Source: Anaerolineae bacterium (GTDB lineage: Bacteria; Chloroflexota; Anaerolineae; B4-G1). From it: a stretch of DNA of 14,380 bases. The translations under genes were made by a program, and so were the position numbers. The stretch's first letter is position 1, and the number at the start of each line of letters is the position of its first letter. Of the stretch, positions 1 through 14,350 are shown piece after piece. The DNA lies in the NCBI GenBank assembly GCA_030612585.1, contig JAUWNP010000111.1, forward strand, positions 1-14,380, in the 5' to 3' direction. The notes beneath the pieces were generated by a model that was given only the letters and a program-made list of their open reading frames with translations, had not been told where the DNA came from and did not search any database.

Positions 1-4
1 GCAT
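1..4 (-). CDS. Start of a further leftward gene cut off by the window edge
   Basis: Only the start codon (ATG, complement of bases 2-4) is inside the window. It is inferred from a very strong Shine-Dalgarno, GGAGGGAGG (complement of 10-18), placed 5 nt before the ATG. It follows the TGSGDI-module operon in the same direction after a gap of about 126 bp, so it may be a further component of that system or an independent gene. Nothing can be said about the product. Confidence 0.4.
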
Positions 5-35
5 CAATGCCTCCCTCCAAAAAATAGATAGAGAC

Positions 36-64
36 AGTATGCCATCAAACGGCCACTTTGTTAA
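36..64 (-). promoter_or_regulatory. Possible sigma-70-type promoter for the edge gene
   Basis: On the minus strand, TTAACA (complement of 59-64) and CATACT (complement of 36-41) are separated by exactly 17 nt. The match is only moderate (5/6 and 4/6). It lies between the stop of the small module protein (131) and the edge gene's ribosome site, so the edge gene may have its own transcript besides read-through. The rest of 5-130 shows no gene I can support. Confidence 0.3.
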
Positions 65-130
65 GGAGCTACCAGCGATGTGCCTGCGTAATTCAAATGA
101 CGCACTTTACTTCCCTACGGAGATAGAAAA

Positions 131-568
131 TCATTTATGGATCTTGATCAAATCCTTACCTAAAACACGTTCAACACCAACAGCTATTCCCTCACGCCGA
201 GTTTCGTCGTAATAAATGTCACCACTACCGGTGTGTACTGGGCCTGATACAGGCCCGGTAAACTTTGTTTTGTGGATACGTTCTCCGCCAATAACGTCCC
301 CTGTAATACGTGCCTCACCGCCAAAGAAGACGCCGCCGCTGCGCGCGTCAATGTAGACCGAGGAGACCGAGGCAATCTGCCGGCCGCGCAACAACTCAGC
401 GACGGCGCGAGCCACATCCTCAACTTTATCTCTGATTTCTTTGACCCACTCCTCTTCTGAGGCAGGTCGGACCGGCGACTCAGCGTCTCTGTCCTCCGGT
501 GGAGCCTCAGCGGCCACTGCCTCCTCTGCCCTTTCCTGAGCATTGTTTACGGATTCATCACCACTCAT
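131..568 (-). CDS. Small soluble protein with a GDVIG / GPVHTGSGDI glycine-rich module
   Basis: The product is 145 aa with no membrane segment or signal peptide. Residues 1-40 are acidic and Ala/Glu-rich, probably disordered. Residues 40-62 look like an amphipathic helix. Residues 71-118 form the glycine-rich module (SGGVFFGGE, TGDVIGG, then SGPVHTGSGDI). A basic tail follows. The same module is in the two upstream genes, which is the main clue to function: shared assembly or recognition inside one system. The start at 568 is chosen because a GGGGG-type ribosome site (complement of 576-583) lies 7 nt upstream; an in-frame ATG at 589 would place that site inside the gene. The first 11 bp overlap the end of the DUF4062 gene, implying translational coupling. 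No enzyme motif is visible, so an adaptor or regulator is inferred only. Confidence 0.85.
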   Translation of the reverse strand: MSGDESVNNAQERAEEAVAAEAPPEDRDAESPVRPASEEEWVKEIRDKVEDVARAVAELLRGRQIASVSSVYIDARSGGVFFGGEARITGDVIGGERIHKTKFTGPVSGPVHTGSGDIYYDETRREGIAVGVERVLGKDLIKIHK

Positions 569-1688
569 CGGTAAACCCCCTCTGTCCACTCAATCGACCA
601 AATCGCCGTTGGAACTCTGCGACAGCGGGCTCACCGGCAGCTTCGATAGTCTGCGCCATGGCGGGATGGAAGATAACGGCCACCACCGCGCCGGCAAGAG
701 ACGGCAGGTGCTTTTGGAACCAGCCCAACGCCGACTCCATCAGCCCCAGGTCAGGCTCCCTCTCGGCGATGGTCTCAGCCAGCGAATCCACTCGCTGCAA
801 GGCTTTAGATTGCACTGCTGGTGGGGCCTGGGCGGCCACGGCCTGGCGCAGGGCGGCCAGCAGGGTCTCCAACGAGGCATCCGCACCGACCGACATGCTG
901 CCAATGTGGATGTCCCCGCTGCCGGTGTGAACCGGGCCGGTGATGGAGCCGTGGAAATGGGTCTCGTGGCTGGTCTTGGTCTGGTCGCTGCCAATCACGT
1001 CCCCCTGGATGTGGACCGACCCTTCCCCCTCAAAATAGACCCCGCCGCTGCGGTTGTCCACCTTCACTACTCGGGAAGAGCTGCCGTCGCCGATGACGTT
1101 GCAGTCTCCCACAATCTGGGCAATGTCCTTCCCGGCGGCTACGTGGCGGGCGTGGTCGCCAATGATGATTCGAACGTTGTCCCCGCCGACTGCTGGCCTT
1201 CCCCCTTTCAGCCATTCCAGGAATTCGCCCAGAGGACCCAAGTCCCGAGGTCGTAGCCGGTAGCGGCGATATCCTTTGATCAACTCGTCGGTTACCGCCT
1301 CCTGCACCTGACGTCTCAATTCATCAGTTGTAGCGAACTCCACCCATTTGACGTCAATAGCCTCGACGAAAGTCTGAGCCTCCAGGCTCCGATGGCATTT
1401 CTTGAGAAAGACCAGACGGGGCTTGACGGTGACCGAGGCAGTCTGCCACTCCTTGCGCACTGGGTCGGTAATGTTCTGGCCCAAGAGCAGGATGAACAGG
1501 TCACACTCCCCCACCTTGTCCAAGTAGCTCTCCTCCAGCGGGTCGGCTGAAGCCGGGGTGCACTCAAAGGCCCAGGGTCGGGTCAGGGGTACGGCCGCCA
1601 GGGCCTCGCCGACCGCCCGCCGCTCTGCGAGGAGATTAGCGATAGGGGAACTGAGGAAAACCAATAGCTTGTTTTCCATATCTACCAT
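558..1688 (-). CDS. DUF4062 protein with glycine-rich GDVIG / GPVHTGSGDI module
   Basis: The product is 376 aa. Residues 7-110 match DUF4062 by eye: a beta strand and Ser-Ser turn (KLLVFLSSP), the AERRAVGEAL helix, then CDLFILLLGQ with a conserved Gly. DUF4062 is a TIR/flavodoxin-like domain found next to NACHT-type NTPases in animals and bacteria; its biochemical role is not established here. Residues 170-263 are glycine-rich with IIIGDHARHVAAGKD, SGGVYFEGE, QGDVIG and ITGPVHTGSGDI. Residues 272-365 are helical and end in a hydrophobic stretch around LAGAVVAVIFHPAM, too polar around it to call a clear membrane anchor. The start is 4 nt after the upstream stop; an ATG at 1679 (MENK) is an equally good candidate. 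The reading frame is open further upstream, to 1817, but that part overlaps the previous gene and looks unlike DUF4062. No NTPase motifs are present. Confidence 0.85.
   Translation of the reverse strand: MVDMENKLLVFLSSPIANLLAERRAVGEALAAVPLTRPWAFECTPASADPLEESYLDKVGECDLFILLLGQNITDPVRKEWQTASVTVKPRLVFLKKCHRSLEAQTFVEAIDVKWVEFATTDELRRQVQEAVTDELIKGYRRYRLRPRDLGPLGEFLEWLKGGRPAVGGDNVRIIIGDHARHVAAGKDIAQIVGDCNVIGDGSSSRVVKVDNRSGGVYFEGEGSVHIQGDVIGSDQTKTSHETHFHGSITGPVHTGSGDIHIGSMSVGADASLETLLAALRQAVAAQAPPAVQSKALQRVDSLAETIAEREPDLGLMESALGWFQKHLPSLAGAVVAVIFHPAMAQTIEAAGEPAVAEFQRRFGRLSGQRGFTDEW
576..583 (-). promoter_or_regulatory. Ribosome binding site deciding the start of the small module protein
   Basis: The minus strand reads AGAGGGGG, 7 nt before the ATG at 568. 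It lies within the last codons of the upstream DUF4062 gene and would lie inside the coding region if the alternative ATG at 589 were used. It therefore argues for the shorter 145-aa product. Confidence 0.65.
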
Positions 1689-1692
1689 CAGC

Positions 1693-2937
1693 CTATGAAC
1701 TAACCCTACTGTCTTTCCAAGCTTGGTACACGTACCAAATTGCGGAGAGAGAGCAAACCGCAAAGGGAGTGCCCCAAAGAATCGCAATGAGACCGAACGC
1801 CAGCACAACAAGGTCATCGAGCGATCCGGACCATAGGGGTGTACCGGTCATCAGAAAAGGCGAGATGTTGACCAACATTATGCAGCCAAACACTGCCGCC
1901 ACCATCAGGCACTCTATAGCCTTTCTAATGCCTCCAACAGGAATCTCCGCTTTGGCAATCTCGCCATTGTGTCCATCAATCCAGATATTGTAGAGGCGAT
2001 CACGATAAATTAGTGTAACTTTCCACAGAGGCATACACACGAGTGCAATGCTGAGGGGATTGATGTCGCTGTCAAAACGCTCCAGCCTATGGAACTTAGA
2101 ACGAAACTGAGTCCAGTAGAAGGTATGGATATCATTGTGCGCCTTTTTGATGGCAAACTGAGGAGATGAGCTTATCAACGTCTTTCCGATTTGTCCAACT
2201 TGTGTCCAGTCCGTAACCTCCTCTGCGCGAGACAGGAACGTGGGATCTTCCGTGACGGGAATTCCACTTGATGCAATGGAGAAAAAGGGAAATCTGGGAG
2301 AGAGATATGGCTTGAAGGCAGAGTTGTCTGGACCAAGCGAGGAACCACGTCCCCCCAATGCTTCAGATAAGGTTGATATGAGTTTCCTAAGCTTAACAAA
2401 CACAAAGCCTCCCCAATCGTACACGATTCTTAAGGAACCTCGCTTGAATAGATGGGCTAGTTCTACAGATGGAACCTCAACCTTTCCAGCGTAGATGGGC
2501 CAACGATGAGAGACCTGGTGGATATGGGGACCTGTCCTTTCCTCGTATTCCTCTCTATGTACCTCACCATCCGCGCCATGCACCGATCGGGTCCTTTTGT
2601 GGACGCCCTCGTACCGTATTGCTACCTCACACTCTATAAGCCACCACGGATGATATGCTATCTCAACTTTCTCAATGCCTGGCAGTTGTCTTAAGCTTGA
2701 AGGCGCATAAGATTGCCGTTGCAAGTAACTAGCGGCGCATTGTAAGACTTGTCCGTGGTTGATTCTTTTTTCCACCAGGAAAGTCTTTGGTCTGCCCAGA
2801 CCATAGGCGTCCTCCACGTGGAAGTGCAAATCTTTCACAGCGACCTGGAATGTTCTGACACTGATATCGCCACTGCCAGTGTGTACCAGTCCCCTGATAG
2901 AACCATGAAGGTGGGTCTGGTGAATACCGTTAGACAT
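1693..2937 (-). CDS. Two-helix membrane protein with N-terminal TGSGDI motif
   Basis: The product is 414 aa. Residues 4-25 carry the shared motif (THLHGSIRGLVHTGSGDI) but lack the preceding GDVIG half seen in the two downstream proteins. Residues 50-135 include a beta-rich stretch with PWWLIECEVAIRYEG. Residues 318-336 read YNIWIDGHNGEIAKAEIPVGG, resembling the 'G-x-T/N-G-E/K' loop of uncharacterised membrane proteins often annotated as PriA-like or zinc-ribbon membrane proteins; no Cys ribbon is present here. Two membrane segments lie near 341-362 and 375-404, leaving most of the chain in the cytoplasm or wrapped on one side. AAGGAG (complement of 2943-2948) lies 5 nt before the ATG. It is first in the operon, behind a good promoter. 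It is visibly AT-richer than its neighbours, which suggests separate origin. Function is unknown. Confidence 0.85.
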   Translation of the reverse strand: MSNGIHQTHLHGSIRGLVHTGSGDISVRTFQVAVKDLHFHVEDAYGLGRPKTFLVEKRINHGQVLQCAASYLQRQSYAPSSLRQLPGIEKVEIAYHPWWLIECEVAIRYEGVHKRTRSVHGADGEVHREEYEERTGPHIHQVSHRWPIYAGKVEVPSVELAHLFKRGSLRIVYDWGGFVFVKLRKLISTLSEALGGRGSSLGPDNSAFKPYLSPRFPFFSIASSGIPVTEDPTFLSRAEEVTDWTQVGQIGKTLISSSPQFAIKKAHNDIHTFYWTQFRSKFHRLERFDSDINPLSIALVCMPLWKVTLIYRDRLYNIWIDGHNGEIAKAEIPVGGIRKAIECLMVAAVFGCIMLVNISPFLMTGTPLWSGSLDDLVVLAFGLIAILWGTPFAVCSLSAIWYVYQAWKDSRVSS

Positions 2938-3117
2938 TTATACTCCTTATCACTCAAACAGTTAGCACTGCAGTTCTCCTGCGCTCCCAACGGAGATTGC
3001 TTTCACCGCTGGCTCCGCGATCCCCCGTCCGCCTTCGAGCGTGGTGGATGCTCTCCACTTCGTGGTAGATGCAGTCCAGCACTCTATCACCTCTTAACCA
3101 TCCGGCTTGTTAGTTGC
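2938..3117 (-). promoter_or_regulatory. Long, potentially structured 5' leader of the TGSGDI operon
   Basis: About 180 nt separate the predicted transcription start (near 3117) from the first ATG (2937). On the transcript strand I see short hairpins: CCAC-GAA-GTGG; GAGC...GCTC around an ATCCACCAC loop; and CGGAG...CTCCG. There is no terminator-like U-tract and I recognise no known riboswitch class. A short GTG-initiated frame of 43 codons is possible but has no properly spaced ribosome site, so I do not call it a gene. Confidence 0.35.
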
Positions 3118-3123
3118 ATGGCT

Positions 3124-3152
3124 AGTATACTACACGACTGTGCCTGACACAA
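3124..3152 (-). promoter_or_regulatory. Sigma-70-type promoter for the TGSGDI operon
   Basis: On the minus strand, TTGTGT (complement of 3147-3152) and TATACT (complement of 3124-3129) are separated by 17 nt. The -10 matches the consensus in 5 of 6 positions. The -35 lies inside a small inverted repeat, CCTGA (3143-3147) with TCAGG (3156-3160), which could bind a regulator. Predicted start of transcription is near 3117. Confidence 0.6.
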
Positions 3153-3156
3153 ATCT

Positions 3157-3394
3157 CAGGATCTGGGATGGTTCCCTACGCTGTGATGTGGTGTGAGATA
3201 TTCGTGGGACTATAGTCTTCATCTGGCCCATCGCTCACCGAAAGCACCCCCCATATATGGGCAAAAGACGGCTTTTTGGGCCAAAAACGGCATATCTGGG
3301 GGGCGAATTTGATCTGGAAAGGCAAAACACTGTCATTGCAACCCACGAATAATTCATCTTCTTATCACACATTAGGGAACCGTCCCCAGGATCT
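3157..3394. repeat. Large symmetric inverted-repeat region between divergent promoters
   Basis: Several blocks occur in inverted copies at almost constant distance from a centre near 3275. GGTTCCCTA (3170-3178) pairs with TAGGGAACC (3373-3381). TATTCGTGGG (3199-3208) pairs with CCCACGAATA (3342-3351). CCCCCCATATATG (3247-3259) pairs with CATATCTGGGGGG (3291-3303), with one mismatch. The middle contains TTTTTGG-G-CCAAAAA (3273-3287). The sequence between blocks is not conserved between arms. It may be a decayed palindromic mobile repeat or paired operator regions. No gene is supported in it. Confidence 0.65.
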
Positions 3395-3410
3395 CCTGTC
3401 GCCTCATCGG

Positions 3411-3439
3411 TTGCGTCAAATTGACAACTGGCGTACAAT
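3411..3439 (+). promoter_or_regulatory. Promoter of the Vps62-PrsW gene
   Basis: TTGCGT (3411-3416) and TACAAT (3434-3439) are 17 nt apart. Transcription would start near 3446, giving a leader of about 27 nt that contains the GAGGAGG ribosome site. A TTGACA at 3421-3426 is only 7 nt from the same -10 and so is not its partner. Confidence 0.55.
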
Positions 3440-3458
3440 TCACGCCCAGAGGTGAAAC

Positions 3459-3465
3459 GAGGAGG
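3459..3465 (+). promoter_or_regulatory. Ribosome binding site deciding a GTG start
   Basis: GAGGAGG lies 7 nt before the GTG at 3473. An in-frame GTG at 3452 would place this site within the gene and itself lacks a good upstream site. The start at 3473 is therefore preferred. Confidence 0.7.
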
Positions 3466-3472
3466 CACAACA

Positions 3473-5971
3473 GTGCTCACACACATAGGGGCCAAGAAAC
3501 CGGGTTTTTCACACAGGAAGACCTCGCTGACAGCGGGAAAGCACCTGCGAGCAATACTACTTCGCTTGTGGAGCACCAAAAACCCGGTTTCTGTGTCCAT
3601 CGCGCTGGCGCTGGTGCTTCTGGCCTGGGCCGTTCCGGTCCTGGCCGACGATCCCCCTCCTCCCGCAAGCGACGAGGAGTTGGCCCGGCGCTACGCACCG
3701 GTGCTCTACTTCCACCCGGCCGAGATCTTCCGCCCCCAGCCGGTGGACGTGATCGTGGAGCAGGCCCGGTTGCGCCAGGGCCGCAGGCTGTGGTTCGACG
3801 TCAACGTTCTGCTCAGCCTGGACGTCTTCGATCTGTTCAACCTCGAAAGCGACGAGAGCCACTTTCTCGACGTCTGGTACGGCGACGACGGCGGTTCAGC
3901 CTACACCAATTACTCCGCCCACCAGGCATACTATGAGGCAGTGCTGAGCCTCGAGGCCGGTGGGCCGCCCGCTGTGGTCTACGCCCACGTGGTGCGGGAA
4001 AAGGACACAGGTCACATCACGATCCAGTACTGGGCCCTCTATTTCTACAACGACTGGTTCAACAAACACGAGGGCGACTGGGAAATGGTCCAGGTGATGC
4101 TCACCGCTGAGGGTGAGCCGGAATGGGTGGTGCTCAGCCAGCACCACGGCGGCACCCGCCGGCCCTGGGCCAGTGCGCCAGTTGAGCCGGTCGAAGACGG
4201 CACGCACCCGGTAGCCTACGTCGCCCTGGGCTCGCACGCCAACTACTTCGCCGGCGACGAGATCTACCCCAATGGAAAGGACATCGGCAAGACACGTATC
4301 GAGATTCTGGACCGCACGGGCACCTGCGACCGTCTGATCCCCGACGTGATCCTGATCCCCGACCGGGCCGACCTGACGATGGACCCCGAAACGTGGCCGG
4401 GAGCGGAGTGGCTGCCCTACCGTGGCCGCTGGGGTGAGGCGGCCGTCCAGAGCGACTTCGGCGGCCCGCTGGGCCCGGCCGACAAGGGCGCGCAGTGGGA
4501 ACAGCCCTATGCCTGGGGGATGGCCCAACCCCTGGACACGGATACCTGGTACGCTAACCGGCTGCGAGTGGAGGTCGTCGGAGCGACTGCCCAAGATGCC
4601 GAAGAGGCCCAGGTACAGTTGGCGGCCGAGCGCGGCGGCGAGTTGTCCCCGGTGGAGGAATTGGGCCACCTGGCCATCCTGCATAGCGACCCACTGACAG
4701 GGACGGGAGTCGTGGCCTCCATCAACGTTCTCCCCAACAGCCGCTGGGACGTGGTCGCCACCTGGCCTGACGCTGCGACAACGCAGGTGACTCGGCTGCG
4801 CTTCGCCGCTGTGCCGTTCGCCGAGTCGGGCCATGCGACGCTGGAACTGGGGCCCGGCCCCGTGGCAAGCCTGCTGGTGGAGGGCGCAGGCGACGGGGGG
4901 AGCGACCTGGCGCTGGAGCCTGCGGAAACGGAGACCTCCGAGGTCACGTGGGACGCACCCGACCTGGTCTGGATCGGTACCGTCCTCCCGGCGCACCAGG
5001 TGGGAACGGGGTTGCTGATTGTGTTGCTGGCGAGTGTGGTGCCGGCGCTGGTCTACGTCGGCACGCTCTACTGGGTGGACCGGTACGAGAAGGAGCCGAA
5101 GCGGCTGCTGGCGGCAACGTTTCTGTGGGGGGCCATCCCGTCGCTGGCGCTGGCCCTGGCGGCGGAACTGTTCTTTCGGCTGCCGCCGGACCTGATCGGT
5201 GCCCATGCGTTGGAAGCAGTGCGGCTGGGCCTGATCGCGCCGCTGTTGCAAGAGGTCTTAAAGGGCGCGGCGGTGCTTTTTATCTCCTGGCGCTACCGGC
5301 GCGAGTTCGACAACGTCCTGGATGGCATCATCTACGGGGCGATGGTGGGCTTCGGCTTTGCGATGACGGGGAATATCATCAGTTACGCCGGCAGTTTCGC
5401 GCTGTGGGGCTTCGACGGACTCAGTGTGTCCGTCTTCGCTGAGGGGCTGGCCTACGGTATGAACCACGCCTTATATACGGCGGTCTTTGGCGCGGGGCTG
5501 GGATTCGCTCGCCTGGCACAGAAGCGGAGGCAGCGCTGGGTGCTAGCTGTGGGGGGATTCGTGCTGGCGGTGGTGACTCACGCGCTGCATAGCCTGCTGG
5601 CGCGAAATCTGCTGGGGTTGAACATCGTGACAGTGCTCGCAACAGGGGCGGGGGTGATCCTGGTCGCGATCGTCACAGGCTGGTCGCTGGCGCGGCAGCG
5701 CCGGTGTCTGATAACCGAGTTGGTGGGCGAGGTGCCAGACGCGCTCTACCGCACGCTGACCGCCCCAGGGAGGCGCGGCCGGGCAGAGTGGCGGGCGCTA
5801 TGGACCGGAGGGATAAGTGAGTGGCGGCGGGCACGACGACTACACGAATACTGTACAGAACTGGCCTTCAAAAAGATGCAGCACCGGCGGCGGCCCGATG
5901 AGTCTGAGATAGTTCAGGAAATTGAACGGTTGCGCCAGGAAATCAGCACACTGGTCGAACACACGGACTAG
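3473..5971 (+). CDS. Vps62-like domain fused to PrsW-type intramembrane protease domain
   Basis: The product is 832 aa. After a basic N-terminal stretch, a hydrophobic segment ending VLLAWAVPVLADD (about 47-59) looks like a signal peptide or anchor. Residues 65-350 resemble the Vps62/DUF946 family (RRYAPVLYFHPAE, KHEGDWEMVQV, GSHANYF). Residues 395-495 are beta-rich. From about 508, several membrane helices form a PrsW-like (M82) domain: WVDRYEKEP, APLLQEVLKG, FDNVLDGIIYGAMVGFGFAMTGN, NHALYTAVFGAGLG, THALHS. In active members the first motif is EExxK and the later one has Glu before Asn; here they are Gln-Glu (593-594) and Gly-Asn (633-634), while the two His (665, 703) remain. B. subtilis PrsW cleaves the anti-sigma factor RsiW; here catalysis is doubtful. 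The C-terminus (from about 745) is cytoplasmic and charged. The gene is monocistronic, convergent with the FHA gene. Confidence 0.88.
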   Translation: MLTHIGAKKPGFSHRKTSLTAGKHLRAILLRLWSTKNPVSVSIALALVLLAWAVPVLADDPPPPASDEELARRYAPVLYFHPAEIFRPQPVDVIVEQARLRQGRRLWFDVNVLLSLDVFDLFNLESDESHFLDVWYGDDGGSAYTNYSAHQAYYEAVLSLEAGGPPAVVYAHVVREKDTGHITIQYWALYFYNDWFNKHEGDWEMVQVMLTAEGEPEWVVLSQHHGGTRRPWASAPVEPVEDGTHPVAYVALGSHANYFAGDEIYPNGKDIGKTRIEILDRTGTCDRLIPDVILIPDRADLTMDPETWPGAEWLPYRGRWGEAAVQSDFGGPLGPADKGAQWEQPYAWGMAQPLDTDTWYANRLRVEVVGATAQDAEEAQVQLAAERGGELSPVEELGHLAILHSDPLTGTGVVASINVLPNSRWDVVATWPDAATTQVTRLRFAAVPFAESGHATLELGPGPVASLLVEGAGDGGSDLALEPAETETSEVTWDAPDLVWIGTVLPAHQVGTGLLIVLLASVVPALVYVGTLYWVDRYEKEPKRLLAATFLWGAIPSLALALAAELFFRLPPDLIGAHALEAVRLGLIAPLLQEVLKGAAVLFISWRYRREFDNVLDGIIYGAMVGFGFAMTGNIISYAGSFALWGFDGLSVSVFAEGLAYGMNHALYTAVFGAGLGFARLAQKRRQRWVLAVGGFVLAVVTHALHSLLARNLLGLNIVTVLATGAGVILVAIVTGWSLARQRRCLITELVGEVPDALYRTLTAPGRRGRAEWRALWTGGISEWRRARRLHEYCTELAFKKMQHRRRPDESEIVQEIERLRQEISTLVEHTD
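3495..3592. repeat. Inverted-repeat element inside the 5' coding region
   Basis: AGAAACCGGGTTTTT (3495-3509) and AAAAACCCGGTTTCT (3578-3592) are perfect 15-bp inverted copies separated by 68 bp. The loop holds a small CGCTG-A-CAGCG palindrome. It is read in frame and supplies part of the basic extension ahead of the signal-like helix of the Vps62-PrsW protein. It resembles a small non-autonomous palindromic repeat inserted at the gene start. Confidence 0.7.
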
Positions 5972-5982
5972 AGGCAATTCTG

Positions 5983-6010
5983 TCATTGATCATTGTTCAT
6001 TGGTCATTGA
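5983..6010. repeat. Four tandem TCATTGN heptamers
   Basis: Four perfect 7-bp units of TCATTGN (last bases A, T, G, A) fill most of the 42-bp gap between the convergent Vps62-PrsW and FHA genes. No terminator hairpin is seen in this gap. Confidence 0.75.
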
Positions 6011-6013
6011 CAC

Positions 6014-6658
6014 TCACCGGTTCTCCAACCGGAACCCGTGCCCACGCACAGTAACAATGTAGTGGTGATCCGGGTCTGCGGCTGAGATACGGTCGCGCAG
6101 GCGGCGCACCAGCGCATCAATCGCCTGTTCGGAGATGCCCACCTCTTCATCTTCGGACCACACGGCAGCCACGATTGTTTCCCGCGCAACAACCTCACCT
6201 TCGTGGTCGAGCAGTAACTCCAGCAGCCGGTACTGAGACACCGAGAGAGGCGGGGTCAACTCGTGCCCCCCGACGAAGACCCTCTTGGCAGCCCGGTCAA
6301 CGTGGAGTCCACGGCGTGGACCGGTCAACTCCAACGGCAACGTCGCGTCAGCGCCCACAAAGCCCATCTTGACGCACAGCGCGACCTGTATCTCGTCCCC
6401 ATCCCGCAGACGGTACGGCTCATCGTGCACCTCCTGGCCATTGACGCAAGTGCCGTTTTTGCTCCCCAGATCGCGCAGCAGATAGCCACTGGCGTCCCGC
6501 TCGATCTGGACGTGGTGGCGCGATACCTGCCGCTCCGGGAGTACGATGTCACATTCCGACCCCCGCCCGATAATCACCTGACCCTGCTCGATGACCCAGC
6601 GCTGCCCTTCCAATTCTCCCTCGTAGACAATGAGCATTGGCATGTCCCGTCGCATCAT
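6014..6658 (-). CDS. FHA domain fused to OmpR/PhoB-type winged-helix DNA-binding domain
   Basis: The product is 214 aa and cytoplasmic. An FHA domain (about 7-99) carries the phosphothreonine-binding marks: IGRGSECDIVLP, VSRHH and GSKNGTCVNG. A winged-helix domain of the OmpR/PhoB C-terminal type (about 115-213) ends in the characteristic wing YIVTVRGHGFRLENR. No receiver domain is present, so the FHA domain would replace Asp phosphorylation as the input. A divergent Ser/Thr kinase gene is the obvious partner; the Mycobacterium EmbR-PknH pair is a known parallel, though EmbR has the domains in the other order. AGGAGG (complement of 6664-6669) lies 5 nt before the ATG at 6658 and 8 nt before a second ATG at 6655; a GTG at 6661 is too close. 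Transcriptional control, possibly including its own shared promoter region, is inferred. Confidence 0.93.
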   Translation of the reverse strand: MMRRDMPMLIVYEGELEGQRWVIEQGQVIIGRGSECDIVLPERQVSRHHVQIERDASGYLLRDLGSKNGTCVNGQEVHDEPYRLRDGDEIQVALCVKMGFVGADATLPLELTGPRRGLHVDRAAKRVFVGGHELTPPLSVSQYRLLELLLDHEGEVVARETIVAAVWSEDEEVGISEQAIDALVRRLRDRISAADPDHHYIVTVRGHGFRLENR

Positions 6659-6676
6659 CACAACCTCCTCACTTCA

Positions 6677-6722
6677 AGACCTGACAGGTTTCCACGAATT
6701 TGGGTAAAAACCTGTCAGGTCT
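6677..6722. repeat. Perfect 15-bp inverted repeat in the kinase/regulator control region
   Basis: AGACCTGACAGGTTT (6677-6691) and AAACCTGTCAGGTCT (6708-6722) are exact inverted copies around a 16-nt loop. Each arm also contains its own palindrome, ACCTG-A/T-CAGGT. It lies between the two divergent starts, about 23 bp upstream of the kinase -35. It could be an operator for the winged-helix protein or a genome-wide palindromic repeat that settled here. Confidence 0.75.
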
Positions 6723-6744
6723 GATCAACCGGGAATTGCTGTAC

Positions 6745-6773
6745 TTGACAGAATCGCCCTTCTCGCTTATGAT
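6745..6773 (+). promoter_or_regulatory. Near-consensus sigma-70 promoter of the kinase gene
   Basis: A perfect -35 TTGACA (6745-6750) and TATGAT (6768-6773, 5/6) are spaced by 17 nt. Transcription would begin near 6780, leaving a leader of about 29 nt. The kinase ribosome site is only a purine-rich stretch (GAAGAAGAG), weak compared with neighbours. I found no comparable promoter for the divergent FHA gene. Confidence 0.75.
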
Positions 6774-6808
6774 GAAACACAGCCGCAACAGAGAGAAGAA
6801 GAGAAAAC

Positions 6809-7795
6809 ATGGCCCGCCTGCTTGCATCCGAGACCGTCCTGCGTGGACGGTACAAAATCATTGCGCCTGTCGGCCAAGGGGGTATGGGGGCAGTATACCG
6901 CGCCGAGGACCTGCGCCTGGAAGGTCGCATCTGTGCGGTCAAAGAGGTCCGCCCAGACCCAGACGCCACGCCAGAGGCACTGCTCCAATCCCAGGAGCAG
7001 TTCCGCCGCGAGGCCTCCACCCTGGCGCGGCTGGACCACCCCAACCTGCCCAAGGTCTCCGACACCTTCAGCGAGAATGGGCGTGAGTACCTGGTGATGG
7101 ACTTCGTCGGGGGGCCGGACCTGCGCCACCTGATGGAGGAGAATCGTCGCCAGGGAAAATTCCTCGACGAGCGACAGGTGCTTCGCTGGGCCGATCAGTT
7201 GTGTGATGCGTTGGAGTATCTCCACAGCCAGGACCCTCCCGTGCTCCACCGCGACATCAAGCCGGCCAACATCAAGTTGACGCCCGGTGGGCTGATTAAA
7301 TTGGTGGACTTTGGGCTGGTCAAACTGCTGGCGGCGGACGACTCCCACACCGTCACCATTCTGCAAGGTCGGGGCACCGTAGCCTATACCCCGTTGGAGC
7401 AGTATGGTGGAGATACCGGCCACACCGATGTCCGTTCCGACGTTTACTCGTTTGGCGCTACGCTCTACCATCTGTTGACCAATCAGCCCCCAGCAGATGC
7501 CAAGCAGCGGTTCCTCAACCCCAACGCGCTCCTGTTCCCGCGGGCGATCAATCCACGCATCCCTCCCACCACAGAGCGTGCCATTATGACAGCCATCGCC
7601 ATGCATCCCAGTCCACGTCCACCAAACGTGGCAGCGTTTCGGGAACTGCTACACGCCAGTTCCATCCCCTCCTCCTTGCTTCCCCTGGTTCCCGCGCAAG
7701 GGGAGTGGCGCCGGGCAGTGATCGAAAACCGGGGCTTGCTATCGTTTGCCGCCGTGATGCTCATCCTCGCCGTATTGGTGACCTTCTTCAATTAG
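6809..7795 (+). CDS. Hanks-type Ser/Thr protein kinase with C-terminal membrane anchor
   Basis: The product is 328 aa. The kinase core is complete: glycine loop GQGGMGAVY (22-30), Lys45 in CAVKEV, Glu68 in helix C, catalytic [11 protein letters not shown] with Asp149 and Asn154, and DFG at 167-169. The activation segment contains [13 protein letters not shown] in place of the usual APE. After the core there is a short linker and one hydrophobic helix (about 308-327, [19 protein letters not shown]) at the extreme C-terminus, so the kinase is tail-anchored and has essentially no extracellular sensor domain. Input must come through the membrane helix, a partner or the linker. The divergent FHA-winged-helix gene suggests a phosphothreonine-based signalling pair. 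The gene is convergent with the GH3 gene. Confidence 0.95.
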
Positions 7796-7824
7796 CCGCT
7801 CAAAATCCCTGCCTCAAGGACATC

Positions 7825-7887
7825 ACACCTGCTAATCTGCCAACCTGCAAACTTGCAAACTTGCACACCTGAAACCTGCAAACTTGC
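7825..7887. repeat. Degenerate tandem octamers (AAMCYTGC-like)
   Basis: Eight consecutive units of a degenerate 8-bp motif, mostly AAACTTGC, AAACCTGC or CAACCTGC, with one unit short by a base (7865-7871). They fill the gap between the convergent kinase and GH3 genes. No terminator-like hairpin with a T-run is visible on either strand here. Confidence 0.75.
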
Positions 7888-7890
7888 GGA

Positions 7891-10755
7891 CTATCCAGAC
7901 CGTCTCCACCGGCCGGCAATCCGCGCGATAACCAGCGGCACCACCCCGCCCAGCAGCCCCATCCATCCTGCGGCCCACACGCCAGCCTGCTCTCGCAACC
8001 AGACAGCCCCTGGCACGCGCAGAGCGTAGGCCAGATACAGCGCCAGTCCGCCTATCATACACCACAACGCCACGCGCAAAGCCCGGCTGGCTGGACCGTT
8101 GTCAAAACGCACAACGTAGTACCCCGTACCGCCGACGATGAGGACACCGAGCAGTGCCAGGGTCAGGTCCAGAAATCCGACGCTCTCGATCGCGGGGGGT
8201 ATCTCTTCCTCCTCATTCCCCGGCCCAGGCGTGGCTGTGGGTGTTTCTTCGACCTCCGGTTCTGGCTCCGGTGTAGGAGTTGGTCTCGGTGTAGACGTAG
8301 GCCTGGGCGTGGACGTGGGCGTGGGCGTCCAGATGATGGCTGGCTCCCCCTCCGGGATCGTGATTTGCAGGCAGATTGTGCGCGGAACAGGGTCTGCCTG
8401 GACGGATATCTCGAGTTGCCCCGTCCGCTCCAGCGTAACCGCCGTTTCGGCCACGCCGCCCTGGGTCGTTTCCACAATGAAGTGTTCCAACCCTTCCTGT
8501 GGATAGGTGAAGATGAACCGGACAGGAGTGCCATCGGGCACCGGATGGCCATTGTGATCCACGATCACACCGGTGCGCAACCTCAATTCGTCGCCAACAT
8601 CAAGCCTGGGAGGCTCCAGCGTCGGCTGCCCCTCCTCAGGCGGCTCCGGCGTTGGCTGACCCTCCTCAGGCGGCCCGCCAATGTCGTAGTAGAGCGTGAT
8701 GGTCTGCTCAGGATCTGGAGATGTCCGGGTTGATAAGTCATAGTTGATGCCAGCCACACTGACAGGCGCGGTCCCCCTTGGTGCAAACTCGCCGAACAAC
8801 GCCCGCACGGAACCCTCGATGAAAGGCCCCATCCGGCCGTAAGCCACGTAGTAAGCGCTCAGTTTGTTGATCTCAGTTGCATCCAGGTAGTAGGGGGCAT
8901 CGTAAGCCAGCACGACCAGGTGTGGATCGCGCAACGCATCGGCCCGCTCGGCCAGGAAGCGCCGCACGGCTCCTGACTGGGGCGGATCGCCGGTCGGGTT
9001 GAGCATAGCGAAGATGATCCAGTCGGCCCCTCCCAGTGCCTCTTCGACGGGGTAAGGTTGAGTCGGTGTGATGGCTTCCCCGGCTGTGGGGGACAGCGCC
9101 AGCGCGCTCATGTATTCTTCCAGTTGGTCGAAGGTGAAACTGGTCACCCGCCACGGAGTGATCTGCCCCGTCGCATCAGGGCCATAGAGCCGCACGATTG
9201 TATCTCGCAGCGCGAGAGGATCAATATAGGACACAGGAGCACACACAGCGCAGGGTTGCCCATCCCGACCGTCGGTGAAGATGACGATGTTGTCCTCGGG
9301 AGTCGGTGGAGAGGGGACCAGGTCAGGTGACGGAGGAGAAAGCAGCGTAATAGCGTCACGGCCAATGGCCGATGCCGTCTCCAGTTGCAGCCCTACCTGT
9401 TCGCTGGCTGTCTCCACGTCCGGCTGGATGGCAGCGAGGTCAAACGTGCCGCCGTAGAGTCTCAGTTTCAGCCGCAATATGCGCGCTACAGCCGCATCCA
9501 CCGACATCTGGAACGAGGGATCACTGTCATATTTCTCGCGGAAGAAGGCGATCGTGGACTTGACGTTGGTTATCCGGTCTTCCCAATCATCAGTGAGCGC
9601 AAACTGGGAAAGGAGCAGGAGGTCGTTGCCAGCGAAGAACGCCTCCTGTACGATGCGGCGGCTGTTGAAAGTCTGCTCGCCGGGATCGTAGAAGCGCCTC
9701 AACGCGCGCAGGCCCAATCCATCAGAGACCGTCACACCGCCCGCCTCACGCCAGGCAGCCAGTTCCGGTAACCCCAGCAGCCGCTGGAGCACCTGGCTAT
9801 CCACGCTGACCGGGCGGGTGGTAACAAAACGACCACCCTCCAGCCCCCGGAAGCGGATGTGAGACACCATCAACCCGTCCGTGCGCGCCAACGGATCCTC
9901 AGCCTGGGTCACGGCGAAAAAGGGAGACAAGTCAATCTGCCGTAGTTTCTCCAGCGTGCGTTGTACCGTGGAAACCTCTTCATCAAGTGAACGGTCGGAG
10001 GCTCCCAGGCCAGGGAAGTGCTTCGCTACGACCGCGACCTGTCCCTCGGCCCCCTCGTGGACGCCACGGACATACGCCCGCCCCATCTGCCCCACCCAGA
10101 ACGGCTCACCCCCGAAGGCTCTCACACCCAGGTCACCGGCACTTTCAGGGCGTGGGTTTTCGAGCACGTCCAGCGAGGGCCCCAGCAGCATGTTGATGCC
10201 CAGACCGCGCAGTTCCTGCCCCACAATCTGGCCTATGCGCTCAGTATGGCTCAGATTCCAGGTGGCCCCCAACGCCATCTCAGAGGGCAGAGGTGTCGTC
10301 CCGCTGACGATGCCGGTGAACGGCATGCCGTTGCCCTCGTGATTCACGGCGACAAAGAGAGGGACGAAAGGACCGGGAGATGCTCCTTCCTCGACGAGCG
10401 TCTCGGTCACCGGCTGCGTAGCATCCCAGGCGGCCTGCTGGAGTTGACCGACCAGCGCGGCCACCTGCGCGGGCGTGTCACCCTCGTTGACGATGTTGCC
10501 GTTATCGGGCAGAAGCACTACCCCGCCGATGTGATAATCGCGGGTCAGTTCTGCGATGACACCATCCTCGGCAACCTCGGCCCCAGGGAAAGTGACCAGG
10601 AAGAGCTGCCCCACCTTGGCCGCGCTGGACATACGTTCCATCAGCCGCGCGACCTCGTCTTCCTCCTGCGCACGGCCCATCTTGAGCGGCACAAGCGATA
10701 TCAATATGGTGACCACGAGGGCCAGTGTAGCCAGTCGTTTCAATTGCTTAGCCAT
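7891..10755 (-). CDS. Exported GH3-family glycoside hydrolase-like protein with C-terminal membrane helices
   Basis: The product is 954 aa. Residues 1-29 form a signal peptide or anchor (KQLKR then a hydrophobic core ending GRAQ). A GH3 barrel (about 35-435) shows VAVNHEGNGMPF, GPSLDVLENPRP, KHFPGLGASDRSLDEE and VTVSDGLGL, whose Asp345 fits the nucleophile. The Asp-Ser-His acid/base loop of NagZ-type N-acetylglucosaminidases is absent after KHFPG, so the substrate is uncertain. Residues 450-690 look like a GH3 C-terminal alpha/beta domain. Two PPEEGQPT repeats lead into an immunoglobulin-like domain (about 745-805, resembling invasin/Big repeats). A Thr/Pro linker (810-850) precedes about three membrane helices (863-945). 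The bulk should lie outside the membrane. The ATG directly abuts the stop of the upstream gene (TAAATG) without a clear ribosome site, implying reinitiation. Last gene of its operon. Confidence 0.88.
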   Translation of the reverse strand: MAKQLKRLATLALVVTILISLVPLKMGRAQEEDEVARLMERMSSAAKVGQLFLVTFPGAEVAEDGVIAELTRDYHIGGVVLLPDNGNIVNEGDTPAQVAALVGQLQQAAWDATQPVTETLVEEGASPGPFVPLFVAVNHEGNGMPFTGIVSGTTPLPSEMALGATWNLSHTERIGQIVGQELRGLGINMLLGPSLDVLENPRPESAGDLGVRAFGGEPFWVGQMGRAYVRGVHEGAEGQVAVVAKHFPGLGASDRSLDEEVSTVQRTLEKLRQIDLSPFFAVTQAEDPLARTDGLMVSHIRFRGLEGGRFVTTRPVSVDSQVLQRLLGLPELAAWREAGGVTVSDGLGLRALRRFYDPGEQTFNSRRIVQEAFFAGNDLLLLSQFALTDDWEDRITNVKSTIAFFREKYDSDPSFQMSVDAAVARILRLKLRLYGGTFDLAAIQPDVETASEQVGLQLETASAIGRDAITLLSPPSPDLVPSPPTPEDNIVIFTDGRDGQPCAVCAPVSYIDPLALRDTIVRLYGPDATGQITPWRVTSFTFDQLEEYMSALALSPTAGEAITPTQPYPVEEALGGADWIIFAMLNPTGDPPQSGAVRRFLAERADALRDPHLVVLAYDAPYYLDATEINKLSAYYVAYGRMGPFIEGSVRALFGEFAPRGTAPVSVAGINYDLSTRTSPDPEQTITLYYDIGGPPEEGQPTPEPPEEGQPTLEPPRLDVGDELRLRTGVIVDHNGHPVPDGTPVRFIFTYPQEGLEHFIVETTQGGVAETAVTLERTGQLEISVQADPVPRTICLQITIPEGEPAIIWTPTPTSTPRPTSTPRPTPTPEPEPEVEETPTATPGPGNEEEEIPPAIESVGFLDLTLALLGVLIVGGTGYYVVRFDNGPASRALRVALWCMIGGLALYLAYALRVPGAVWLREQAGVWAAGWMGLLGGVVPLVIARIAGRWRRSG
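8612..8671 (-). repeat. Two 30-bp tandem units encoding PPEEGQPT-x-E
   Basis: Two adjacent 30-bp copies with few differences, in frame within the GH3 gene. They form a spacer between the enzyme part and the Ig-like domain. Such units can expand or contract by slippage without breaking the frame. Confidence 0.75.
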
Positions 10756-11649
10756 TTATTGAGGGATGACGCTGATTGCGACGGGCAGGACAACGTGGTC
10801 ATCACCCGTCCCGGCCAGGACTCGCCCGGCAGCCGGTTCGTACAGGCCAACCACGATCCTCGCCGGCCCGGTGTAGGCGGTGTCGTAGAAGGCCAACAGA
10901 TGAGAGTCTACAATGGTCTCACCGGGGGTCCATCCGGTCGTGGGACGGGTACCGCCTGCCGGTCCACCATCGTGCTGCGCGACGAGGTGGCCGTCCCCTG
11001 CCAGGAGATGAGTGAATACCATGTAGTCCACCGGGCTGGTCCCATCCAGTGCCCGCCAGTAGAGGGTGAGCGGCAGAGGCTCTGCCGTGGTGACCGCGGC
11101 GGCCGGCAGGCTATAACCGACCAGTGCCGAAAAATCGCCGAAACGGACGTATAACTCACCCGAGATGGCGATTTCCGGTACCTCAGCCGGCTCCGGAGTG
11201 GGCATCTCAGCCGGTTCTGGAGTGGGCGTCTCGACCACCTCCGGCGGAGGAGGCGTGGGCACCGTCCCGGTCGTGGTCAGCGGGGTGAGAGTCGGTACCA
11301 CGAGTTCCGGCATGGGACTGGGAGTAGACGTGACGCCGGAGGTAGGAAACTCCACGCCGGCTGACAGTGTAGGTGTTGGGAGCAGGGTTCCTGCCTCATA
11401 GATGGACAAGCCGGGCAGAATAATAGTAATGCTGACGAAGATGACCACTCCAATGACGACGAAGATCAGTACCATAGACCAGGCCTGTACGATTCTTGCT
11501 GTGGCAGTATCCCGTTCGAGTATGAACAGGGCCAGGTTTCGCTCCCGCCGAGCGACAAGCGCACGCACCACATGGACAATGACGCCGATGGCACATGCAG
11601 CGTAGAGAACCCAGACGTTCTCTACCAGCCATTGGAGAAGAATCATCAT
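10756..11649 (-). CDS. Two-helix membrane protein with Thr/Pro linker and beta-rich outer domain
   Basis: The product is 297 aa. Membrane helices lie at about 10-33 and 56-79, separated by a basic cytoplasmic loop (ARRERNLALFILERD). A long Thr/Pro/Glu linker (90-158, with PTPEPAE repeats) leads to a beta-rich domain (160-297) with LTLYWRA, PVDYMVFTHLL, TTGWTPGE and IVVGLYEP, a pattern I associate with uncharacterised Chloroflexota surface proteins. The start is the ATG at 11649 that overlaps the phosphorylase stop (ATGA); a TTG at 11670 is in frame but deep in the upstream gene. Tight coupling to the phosphorylase before it and the GH3 protein after it suggests a shared transcript. The helix-linker-domain plan mirrors the GH3 protein's, so the two may act together at the cell surface. 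Function is not known. Confidence 0.85.
   Translation of the reverse strand: MMILLQWLVENVWVLYAACAIGVIVHVVRALVARRERNLALFILERDTATARIVQAWSMVLIFVVIGVVIFVSITIILPGLSIYEAGTLLPTPTLSAGVEFPTSGVTSTPSPMPELVVPTLTPLTTTGTVPTPPPPEVVETPTPEPAEMPTPEPAEVPEIAISGELYVRFGDFSALVGYSLPAAAVTTAEPLPLTLYWRALDGTSPVDYMVFTHLLAGDGHLVAQHDGGPAGGTRPTTGWTPGETIVDSHLLAFYDTAYTGPARIVVGLYEPAAGRVLAGTGDDHVVLPVAISVIPQ
11182..11229 (-). repeat. Two 24-bp tandem units in the Pro-rich linker
   Basis: Two 24-bp copies, differing at a few third positions, encode the repeated TPEPAE-type linker of the two-helix surface protein. They are in frame and probably arose by slippage. Confidence 0.7.
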
Positions 11650-12488
11650 AGCGCTTTTAGCACCCCGCAAATGATGGCTTCCAGTCGTGGCACTAGCATC
11701 CGCCCCGCCTCCAGCACCTCTTCGTGGCTCGTCTCCGCTGGCGACATACCCTCGCCCGGCAAAACGTTGCTGATGCCGGAAAGGCCCAACACCCGCGTGC
11801 CGCCGTGCCGGGCGACGATGGCCTCGGGAACGGTGGACATGCCCACAGCATCCGCTCCAATCAGGCGCAGGAACCGTAGATCGGCCGGGCTCTCGAAACT
11901 AGGACCGACCAGGCAGACGTACACCCCTTCCCGCAAAGGCACATTCGCCCCAGTTGCTGCCTGCCTGGCAAGCGCCCGTAACCGGGTATCGTACACCTCT
12001 GACATGTCGGGGAAGCGCGGCCCGAACTCGTCGAGATTGGGGCCACGCAGCGGATTCAGCCCACCCATCCCGACCAGGTTGATGTGATCGGTGATAAGCA
12101 TCACGTCTCCCGTGTGAAACTCCGGGTTGAGGCCGCCGGCTGCATTGGTGATGATCAGAACCTCAACCCCCAGAACCTGCATCACCCGCACGGGGAAGGT
12201 GGCCTCAGCCATCGAACAACCCTCGTAGTAGTGAGCACGTCCCTGCATCACCGCCACAGCCTGCCCTCCCAGTCGCCCGACGATGAGCCGGCCAACGTGT
12301 CCTTCCACACTCACGGTGGGGAAGTGCGGGATTTCGCTGTAGGGGATTGCCGTACCATCCTCGACAGTATCAGCCAGTGGATTAAGACCCGAGCCCAGAA
12401 TCAGGCCAACCTTCGGTTCGAGTTGGGTCCGCTCTCGTATCGTCGCAGCAGCATCATCGAAGTGCGACCGTGAAAAAAATTCAGGCAT
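11646..12488 (-). CDS. punA: Purine nucleoside phosphorylase, trimeric (PNP-I, high-molecular-mass-independent) type
   Basis: The product is 280 aa, the usual length for trimeric PNP (EC 2.4.2.1), which splits purine (deoxy)nucleosides with phosphate to free base and (deoxy)ribose-1-phosphate in purine salvage. Motifs appear in order: LILGSGLNPL with phosphate-binding Ser33; VEGHVGRL with His64; MQGRAHYYEG with Arg84 and His86; TNAAGGLN; the GPRFPDMSEVYD stretch; GPSFESPADLR with Glu199; GADAVGMSTVPEAIVARH; and SN at 240-241, where Asn contacts the base. GAGGAGA (complement of 12494-12500) lies 5 nt before the ATG. The gene follows the PH/SHOCT gene by 38 bp and overlaps the next gene by 4 bp. 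The Glu-Asn pair suggests a 6-oxopurine preference, which is inferred. A methylthioadenosine phosphorylase is less likely. Confidence 0.96.
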   Translation of the reverse strand: MPEFFSRSHFDDAAATIRERTQLEPKVGLILGSGLNPLADTVEDGTAIPYSEIPHFPTVSVEGHVGRLIVGRLGGQAVAVMQGRAHYYEGCSMAEATFPVRVMQVLGVEVLIITNAAGGLNPEFHTGDVMLITDHINLVGMGGLNPLRGPNLDEFGPRFPDMSEVYDTRLRALARQAATGANVPLREGVYVCLVGPSFESPADLRFLRLIGADAVGMSTVPEAIVARHGGTRVLGLSGISNVLPGEGMSPAETSHEEVLEAGRMLVPRLEAIICGVLKAL

Positions 12489-12526
12489 AAATATCTCCTC
12501 TCATCTCTTTCTTCCCTTTCCTGGCC

Positions 12527-13174
12527 CTAAATCTTGGCCAGCAATCGCTGTTTCTTCTCTTCGAACTCCACGTCGGTAATCACGCCCTTCTGGCGCAATT
12601 CATCCAGTCCGGCAATCAGTTCAGGGACATCGCTGGCGTCTGGCGTTTCAGCGCTCAGTACGCGCCCCACCCGTTCGTCAAAAACACCCAGGCTGCCAAG
12701 TGTCTCCTTCTGATTGAGGAGTTCCTTCTTAAACTCAATGGGATCAGCAATGCGCCGGAAGACGTCAATGCCGCTCTCGGAGCCGCTGATGATCTCAATG
12801 TCACCGAACTTGAGCAAGCGCCCCAGCGCCGACTGCTCCATCACAATATCGTTGATTTTCTCCAGCGAAGTATCCGACACTCGCTTGCCGAACGTCCCCG
12901 TGACCTGGATGATACGCCGGTTGGTGACGATGTACTGCTTGTTCCACCACGCCCAGACGCGAAGCGCGAGGTGGCCGATGATGGGCACAGCCAGCAACAT
13001 GAGGCCGAACCACGCCCAGGGCAGCGAGAGGATGTCCCCCACGACTGAGAGCCCAATGATGACGATACTGACCGCAACGTCAACCAGAATTACAGGCAGC
13101 AACGTGACCCAGTGGTCGCGGGCGACTCGCACGATACGCTCGTTGCGTGCCAGTAGTTCCTCAACATAACCCAT
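12527..13174 (-). CDS. Membrane PH-like (bPH_2) protein with C-terminal SHOCT domain
   Basis: The product is 215 aa. Two membrane helices (about 23-43 and 53-75) precede a bacterial PH-like domain (79-152) with the usual YIVTNRRIIQVTGTFGKR start and the SLEKINDIVMEQSALGRLLKFGDIEI core. Residues 184-214 form a SHOCT-type helical hairpin (IAGLDELRQKGVITDVEFEEKKQRLLAKI), a short module linked to oligomerisation or interaction. It is a cytoplasm-facing membrane protein related to the YdbS/YdbT type; the ligand is unknown. AAGGAGG (complement of 13180-13186) lies 5 nt before the ATG. It heads the leftward operon with the phosphorylase, two-helix and GH3 genes. Upstream of it are palindromic TGACA sites. 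Confidence 0.93.
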   Translation of the reverse strand: MGYVEELLARNERIVRVARDHWVTLLPVILVDVAVSIVIIGLSVVGDILSLPWAWFGLMLLAVPIIGHLALRVWAWWNKQYIVTNRRIIQVTGTFGKRVSDTSLEKINDIVMEQSALGRLLKFGDIEIISGSESGIDVFRRIADPIEFKKELLNQKETLGSLGVFDERVGRVLSAETPDASDVPELIAGLDELRQKGVITDVEFEEKKQRLLAKI

Positions 13175-13205
13175 GTGTGCCTCCTTACGAGAACGGCCTG
13201 GTATT

Positions 13206-13246
13206 TGACAATGTCAGATTGACCTTTGTGCAATGTGACATGTCAA
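13206..13246 (-). promoter_or_regulatory. Paired TGACA palindromes upstream of the PH/SHOCT operon
   Basis: TGACA-A-TGTCA (13206-13216) and TGACATGTCA (13236-13245) lie about 30 bp apart centre to centre in the 77-bp gap after the recombinase gene. A TTGACA (complement of 13241-13246) inside the second palindrome could be a -35 for the leftward operon, but the best -10 at 17 nt (GTCAAT) is poor. This is consistent with an activator- or repressor-controlled promoter. Confidence 0.35.
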
Positions 13247-13251
13247 GGTAG

Positions 13252-14142: not shown

Positions 14143-14184
14143 CACCTGTCCCCTATCGTCACATTCATCTCCTGTCCCAACTAT

Positions 14185-14213
14185 AGTATACTTTGCATGA
14201 ACCCAAAATGCAA
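14185..14213 (-). promoter_or_regulatory. Sigma-70-type promoter of the recombinase gene
   Basis: On the minus strand, TTGCAT (complement of 14208-14213) and TATACT (complement of 14185-14190) are spaced by 17 nt. Predicted start is near 14178, 36 nt before the ATG. The -35 is one arm of a 6-bp inverted repeat (TTGCAT/ATGCAA, 9-nt loop). Confidence 0.6.
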
Positions 14214-14310
14214 GTCCGCCAATTTCAATATCCCCTTCAAACTTTAGTTTCCGGTAAACCGTCCGTCGCTGGTGGGCAGTAGCGTACAGCCGGGAATTCC
14301 AAAAGCAATG

Positions 14311-14339: not shown

Positions 14340-14350
14340 GGAAATTGGCC

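Follow-up and report, generated by a model that had tools for sequence, protein, structure and literature searches.

Short motifs that link a STAND receptor to its effector in bacteria are exemplified by the bacterial amyloid signaling sequences (BASS), for which the source description is reportedly that of Dyrka et al. 2020. The subject of this report is a glycine-rich motif, here called the module, that is carried by the products of three adjacent genes (A, B, and C) near one end of a 14,380-base stretch of DNA from an Anaerolineae bacterium of the phylum Chloroflexota (GenBank contig JAUWNP010000111.1, positions 1 to 14,380). This whole stretch is referred to below as the window. We consider it reasonably probable that the module serves as a homotypic assembly tag, used in the manner of BASS, in a Chloroflexota STAND-NTPase conflict system that is probably directed against phages.

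The sections of the two BASS papers drawn on here describe short motifs found on the products of adjacent genes, at the N terminus of a STAND or NLR receptor and on its effector, with CHAT and TIR proteins also among the carriers (PMC7889193, PMC8086366). A motif linking receptor and effector is of a kind already known, and the actinobacterial form discussed below may belong to a BASS family that has already been published. Several features are common to BASS and the module. Both in the window and in relatives, genes that adjoin or overlap one another encode proteins with the same motif, and it sits at the N terminus of STAND receptors (loci L001, L008, L012, L013, and L047, and database proteins P0034 and P0036), a feature that the window retains only as the truncated protein C. 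Furthermore, actinobacterial TIR/nSTAND3 gene pairs have the BASS layout. In contrast to BASS, the Chloroflexota tag occurs on DUF4062, TCAD9, and membrane proteins, is often internal, and can be present on three or four proteins of a single cluster. BASS-like nucleation or recruitment is proposed for the module because a motif at the receptor N terminus, together with the same motif on the effector, constitutes the BASS layout.

A second point of comparison is provided by the EAD and ternary conflict systems, in which, according to the portions of the descriptions used here (Kaur et al. 2020, 2021; PMC7159879, PMC8195603), diverse effectors are recruited by a common adaptor to a core STAND or ternary system. 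Similarly, the module is found on TCAD9, TRADD-associated transmembrane, and nSTAND proteins, with EAD7 in the same or neighboring proteins. However, EADs are mostly alpha-helical (9 of 12 in those portions), whereas the module is a short glycine-rich motif. In a word search, PMC7159879 contained neither "amyloid" nor "RHIM," and PMC8195603 contained "amyloid" once and "RHIM" not at all. Also, no RHIM family appeared among the Pfam matches (E up to 5) for P0104, P0106, P0010, and the L005 protein, in a type of scan by which short motifs are often missed.

The third related group, the Swarozyc or DUF4062 NADases, is known from a preprint of May 2026 (PMC13174449). In the part of its text relied on here, DUF4062 is a TIR-like NADase whose bacterial members defend against phages by depleting NAD+, and the catalytic glutamate needed for this function is E97 in KpSwz. 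Protein B likewise has a DUF4062 domain, an invariant candidate catalytic glutamate, and further C-terminal parts. The auxiliary domain of KpSwz binds the phage portal itself, according to that same part of the preprint, whereas B would answer a separate STAND receptor via the module. This was the only abstract found that contains both "DUF4062" and "defense," and the portion of its text that was searched lacks the word "amyloid." The string HTGSGD had no match in the literature searched, the coverage of which leaves most subscription journals outside. The elements of the present variant that appear, within the literature searched, to be new are the use of DUF4062 with a STAND protein in trans, the membrane partner, and the presence of ternary-system proteins on one short module.

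A module shared by three adjacent proteins

All three genes are encoded on the minus strand, A first, then B and C, and carry the module at the following positions.

1693-2937, minus strand: gene A, 414 residues, predicted transmembrane protein with the module at its N terminus
558-1688, minus strand: gene B, 376-residue DUF4062 (TIR-like) protein with a central module and a C-terminal helical domain
131-568 (from ATG), minus strand: gene C, 145 residues; an alternative start at GTG 589 is also possible
2863-2886 (A), 909-932 (B), and 215-238 (C), minus strand: module core VHTGSGDI, by DNA pattern match
2863-2916, minus strand: module copy in A, residues 8-25 (THLHGSIRGLVHTGSGDI), by pattern match and translation
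909-1052, minus strand: full module in B, RSGGVYFEGEGSVHIQGDVIG...HFHGSITGPVHTGSGDI, residues 213-260, by pattern match and alignment
215-343, minus strand: full module in C, RSGGVFFGGEARITGDVIGG...GPVSGPVHTGSGDI, by pattern match and translation

The eight-residue core VHTGSGDI is encoded in all three proteins. Its DNA pattern has 3 matches in the whole window versus a mean of 0.00 in 200 shuffles, and the longest substring common to A, B, and C is 8 residues versus 2-4 in 2000 composition shuffles. An initial annotation of this DNA had given the shared string as GPVHTGSGDI, which is accurate for the core itself in all three proteins and for the preceding GPV in B and C; protein A, which holds the second half of the module only, has L in place of P and reads GLV. 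The additional motifs that the same annotation placed before the core in the two downstream proteins, SGGV[YF]F-x-GE and GDVIG, are present in both B and C, whose common long form is R-S-G-G-V-[YF]-F-x-G-E ... GDVIG ... GPVHTGSGDI. The first part of this form is also visible as a DNA repeat between C and B (315-343 and 1024-1052, 79% identity). Because 5 of the 8 core codons differ in each of the three pairs, every change being synonymous, the sameness of the core is attributed to conservation at the protein level and not to recent DNA duplication.

Across relatives, the two halves of the module (RSGGVYF...GDVVG and GPVxGPVHTGSGDI) span about 50 residues, with constant spacing in 22 aligned proteins. 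An alignment of 17 module rows has invariant residues at G30, H33, T34, G35, G37, and I39; these rows are all of the Chloroflexota type, and actinobacterial matches to the profile made from them are weak by construction. A core this short and nearly invariant (six positions in the 17 rows) might instead be a peptide recognized by a third protein, such as a protease, chaperone, or localization factor. This explanation is regarded as improbable, given that the module is found on receptors (nSTAND3) as well as effectors (TIR), and that its position there corresponds to the ends through which known STAND-effector pairs meet.

The coupled starts and stops described in the initial annotation are evident from the reading-frame coordinates: the stop codon of A and the ATG of B are 4 nucleotides apart, and the ATG of C overlaps the end of B by 11 nucleotides. 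The single good promoter that it also proposed could not be recovered. A scan of window positions 1-4000 for the sigma-70 consensus, the one promoter type covered, yielded 2 sites versus 1.6 expected, with none upstream of A on the minus strand.

Near the C terminus of protein A, residues 337-366 and 368-401 form two hydrophobic segments that are predicted from hydropathy to cross the membrane. It matched no Pfam family at E values up to 0.1, and a protein search returned a single homolog at E <= 0.001 (P0001, 93%). Relatives of its C-terminal part are encoded in other Chloroflexota (L052 850-2022; L053 1306-2448). By eye, these carry no module; they begin instead with a zinc-ribbon-like stretch (CxxC...CPYC), an arrangement that would fit replacement of this stretch by the tag.

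The DUF4062 protein

Three further features can be assigned within protein B.

1476-1661, minus strand: DUF4062 profile match, about residues 10-71 (Pfam)
1449-1451, minus strand: Glu80, candidate catalytic glutamate (row alignment)
591-887, minus strand: helical C-terminal domain, residues ~268-366 (alignment; AlphaFold 2 [AF2] predicted local distance difference test score [pLDDT] mostly ~90)

The match to PF13271 (DUF4062) scores 33.6 bits (cut-off 24.7). Glu80 lies in the sequence PVRKEWQTA and is invariant in all six aligned module-bearing DUF4062 rows, which makes it the candidate equivalent of the catalytic glutamate of the DUF4062 family. When the module of B was used alone as a query, 25 proteins were found among 28 candidates, and for 23 of them no DUF4062 is listed. 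Because the 22 aligned rows (B included) have varied N-terminal parts, yet keep a constant module with the same helical domain C-terminal to it, the module and helical tail constitute a portable unit. One of the varied N-terminal parts, that of P0012, weakly resembles EAD11 (E 0.0097, below cut-off). The helical tail itself (591-887) is common to many module proteins that differ in their N termini, and produced no clear structural match.

A truncated receptor in the window and its intact relatives

The identity of protein C becomes apparent on comparison with P0034, a 439-residue nSTAND3 protein (PF20720, 27.9 bits, cut-off 27.2). Residues 1-143 of the 145 in C are identical to the N terminus of P0034, and the point of departure is as follows.

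131-139, minus strand: residue 144 of C to the stop codon, where C departs from the receptor (comparison with P0034)

Past residue 143, P0034 enters its NTPase domain, whereas the window has two other residues and a stop. The frame of C closes at 131, ahead of the NTPase domain, which C as found in the window does not possess. On this comparison, C is the N terminus of a STAND receptor whose body is absent from the window. Thus, the small soluble protein that had been proposed as a separate component is not one, since 143 of its 145 residues are the P0034 N terminus. Likewise, the suggestion that the system lacks the usual STAND NTPase finds no support, because C is an nSTAND3 N terminus and its relatives have the full receptor.

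The break is not a simple frameshift, because six-frame pieces of window positions 1-150 match the rest of six receptors over chance lengths of only 4-6 residues. It may be real, in which case the copy is possibly non-functional, or it may be an artefact of the contig end. The window copy could be a relic or an edge artefact of assembly, with an operon that no longer signals and an arrangement that says little about a working three-part system. The departure of C from P0034 after residue 143, its end 131 bases from the window edge, and the failure of the six-frame pieces to extend the match all fit this explanation. However, the reading frames of A and B are open across their entire length, B agrees with P0005 at 372 of 373 positions, and the purely synonymous differences among the cores imply past selection. 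Moreover, intact relatives exist, and a relic would affect this copy and not the module. We hold this explanation to be somewhat unlikely. As a separate observation, positions 1-130 do not continue the receptor; the minus strand ends there with GGAGGGAGG and an ATG at 2-4, so that a further gene may begin at this end of the window.

Relatives of the receptor provide a view of what the intact system might contain. The N terminus of P0028 resembles C (75% over 91 residues), and this protein matches nSTAND3 below cut-off (23.3 bits versus 27.2) between its module halves and has a TRADD-associated domain with two transmembrane segments at its end. A search with P0028 found 83 proteins, and the RSGGxFF half of the module is located within the first 160 residues in 64 of the 73 receptor relatives P0030-P0102. 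These nSTAND3 relatives also have an unusual P-loop, GxxxxG[KR]W in 40 of 48 pattern matches, at a place where S or T is usual.

Module proteins and receptors can also be paired through the sizes of the contigs that encode them. The comparison covered 23 module proteins (P0005-P0027, with P0028 and P0029 left out) and, for the receptors, P0028 and P0030-P0078, which are the first 50 of the 83 rows. For 6 of the 23 module proteins, the longest contig is of exactly the same size as that of a receptor-type match, compared with 0.07 such pairings expected from shifted lengths. All six receptor partners match nSTAND3 at E < 0.001, with P0034 above the Pfam cut-off and the other five below it (20.4-24.7 bits); one of these partners, P0036, is listed as nSTAND3 in the database's own annotation. 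The longest contig is 2714 bases for both P0005 (B-like) and P0034 (C-like), and 5048 bases for P0037 as well as for P0001 and P0010, which have 93% identity to A and 87% to B, respectively. Together, the last three proteins occupy about 4.55 kb of the 5048 bases, and P0037 is a 733-residue protein with nSTAND3 (21.1 bits) and HEAT_2 (21.9 bits) matches, both below cut-off. Judging from these sizes, A, B, and a receptor apparently lie together on one contig of 5048 bases. Among 56 genomes of the order, a receptor relative was found once at E 1e-20, in genome G003, with 55% identity and inside a module cluster.

Module clusters in other Chloroflexota

The core DNA pattern occurs in 15 stretches of a collection of 84,980 species, comprising six Chloroflexota loci, four actinobacterial TIR loci, one uncertain locus (L004), and four that look chance-like. 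Inspection by eye, with no family search, led to the exclusion of these last four (L002, L007, L009, and L011) as chance similarity. The L005 protein has the motif near its C terminus, as in the actinobacterial TIR proteins.

Searches with the module profile revealed more copies in the same genomes, mostly clustered. All copies lie together in G001 (three, within 3.7 kb), G003 (four, within 12.6 kb), G004 (three, within 4.9 kb), and G448 (two, within 2.0 kb). Two of three copies are clustered in G421, and G426, G002, and G005 have a single match each, the latter two genomes on contigs of 6.5 and 5.0 kb. Computed genome-wide, the probability of such clustering by chance is 7e-7 for G001, 1e-7 for G003, 1e-6 for G004, and 5e-4 for G448. 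The module is rare, because strong matches among 400 genomes sampled from the phylum are confined to the centre genome.

The proteins that carry the module are of very different kinds. TCAD9 proteins in five clusters bear it at about residues 494-555, three of them together with EAD7 (L045, L047, and L051), and L047 also encodes a NACHT protein with an N-terminal copy. Other carriers have hydrophobic, probably membrane, segments (L045, L046, L047, L049, and L050), and L014 and L015 contribute a CHAT and a TPR protein, respectively. In G001, G003, and G004, the module is common to TCAD9 and membrane proteins of one cluster, and in G001 a STAND protein has it too. The clusters also hold CHAT-TPR genes and genes for C-terminal winged-helix proteins, two of which have sub-threshold AAA or STAND matches. 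No EAD family matched within the module itself in the carriers scanned, in which EAD7 and a weak EAD11 match lie elsewhere. A type IIG restriction-methylase and a PglW-like kinase are encoded close to module clusters or directly beside them (L045 16766-19000; L048 10381-11778).

The profile search and examination of gene neighbors thus bear directly on the initial annotation. Module copies do not fall randomly in single genes that lack conserved neighbors; instead, a portable tag recurs in adjacent, unlike genes, as the clusters in G001, G003, G004, and G448 demonstrate, and the expected conflict-system setting is reflected in its presence on nSTAND3/NACHT, TIR, CHAT, and TCAD9 proteins. The idea of a common tag that recruits the DUF4062 protein and the small protein is partly supported; the tag is portable, and the small protein is a receptor fragment. 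That the similarity reflects chance or low complexity is hardly credible: four of the 15 pattern matches in public genomes do look chance-like by eye, but the shuffle controls and the clustering speak against such an origin.

Actinobacterial TIR/nSTAND3 pairs

In all four actinobacterial loci, a TIR gene whose product bears the motif close to its C terminus is followed by an nSTAND3 gene with a version of the motif at its N terminus. TIR_2 scores are 31 bits (L001), 24.7 (L008, below the cut-off of 28), 34.4 (L012), and 35.2 (L013), and the neighboring genes match nSTAND3, the same receptor family as in the Chloroflexota system, at 28, 29.4, 27.2, and 30.6 bits, respectively (cut-off 27.2). 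The DNA search pattern had selected the TIR copies only. The N-terminal versions on the receptors read MHTGSGDI (L001), VHGGNGDQ (L008), MHSGAGDQ (L012), and VHTGSGDQ (L013); the module profile matches these neighbors at E < 0.001 in L001 and L013 only, and those of L008 and L012 were read by eye.

A proposed scheme and its weighing

In the intact form of the system, an nSTAND3-HEAT receptor would bear the module, or its first half, near the N terminus. Sensing of a trigger would cause the receptor to oligomerize and bring its modules together, and the clustered modules might then template or recruit the matching module on effectors. One effector would be the DUF4062 protein B, whose TIR-like domain would destroy NAD+ once clustered, and another would be the two-transmembrane protein A, which might act at the membrane by positioning the response there or carrying it out. 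The physical form would most likely be a short cross-beta (amyloid-type) stack, by analogy with what has been proposed for BASS. The trigger and the cell-death outcome are inferred parts of this scheme.

The sharing of the module, the coupling of the genes, the association with nSTAND3/NACHT, TIR, CHAT, and TCAD9 proteins, the identity of C, and the conservation of Glu80 can be read directly at the sequence level. A number of points weigh against an assembly tag of the BASS kind. Assembly of the module is itself inferred from sequence. In the window copy, the receptor is truncated, and the module of B is internal with a helical domain after it, unlike the terminal motif in BASS descriptions. 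Compared with the Frankia BASS3 peptide, the module profile scores 1.4 bits, with 75 of 2000 shuffles as good, and for the archaeal Methanothrix peptide 307 of 2000 shuffles do as well. The HTGSG core is found in only 10 of the 73 receptor relatives, so that in receptors the first half of the module may be what serves as the tag. No same-size contig partner was found for 17 of the 23 module proteins (11 on contigs < 3.3 kb and 6 on longer ones), the third module copy of G421 is on another contig, and clustering is less striking when chance is computed on the contig as given (0.006 for G001, 0.04 for G003, 0.0003 for G004, and 0.18 for G448). PADLOC searches at E up to 1 gave no match for A or B and only DrmD (E 0.066) for C, and at 0.001 gave nothing for P0037 or P0104. 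Finally, pLDDT in the AF2 model of B is < 50 over module residues 222-257 (shallow alignment). Such low values would fit either an unassembled tag or the shallow alignment. By eye, the single BASS3 peptide compared does read V-x-x-G-x-G-[ND]-[VI]-x-I, which is module-like.

Some of these observations might be accommodated by a module that is homotypic but folded and non-amyloid, such as a small beta-roll or beta-solenoid or an ordered docking peptide comparable to other EADs. The co-occurrence of the module with EAD7 and TCAD9, the two-part form of ~50 residues with its constant spacing in 22 aligned proteins, and the weakness of the BASS3 match are all compatible with such a domain. However, AF2 gives no confident fold, and by eye A, L006, and L014 have only 18-30 module residues, which is short for a globular domain. 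A folded domain is on balance unlikely.

If the module is instead a BASS-like assembly tag, a bolder extension can tentatively be entertained, in which one glycine-rich cross-beta motif acts as a universal plug that connects a STAND receptor to several unlike executioners in a multi-effector amyloid signalosome. The executioners would be the DUF4062 NADase and the membrane protein here, and CHAT, TCAD9, and TIR proteins elsewhere. If this were true, amyloid signaling would extend to ternary conflict systems thought to use helical adaptors. The portion of a 2021 commentary cited here treats as an open question whether bacterial signaling amyloids act beyond NLR/executioner pairs (PMC7889193). 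The module on DUF4062, TCAD9, and membrane proteins offers a defined tag of 20-50 residues for testing this question in systems for which intact relatives exist, and through it the recently reported DUF4062 NADases would be coupled in trans to STAND receptors.

Other features of the window

Beyond the three genes, the window encodes an 839-residue protein (3452-5971) in which a weaker Vps62 match (22.6 bits) precedes a domain of the PrsW intramembrane protease type (108 bits). Exact inverted copies of 15 bases lie near the start of this gene (3495-3509 and 3578-3592). Also present, at 6014-7795, is a divergent gene pair for a regulator with FHA and winged-helix domains and a protein kinase that has, by eye, a hydrophobic C-terminal tail.

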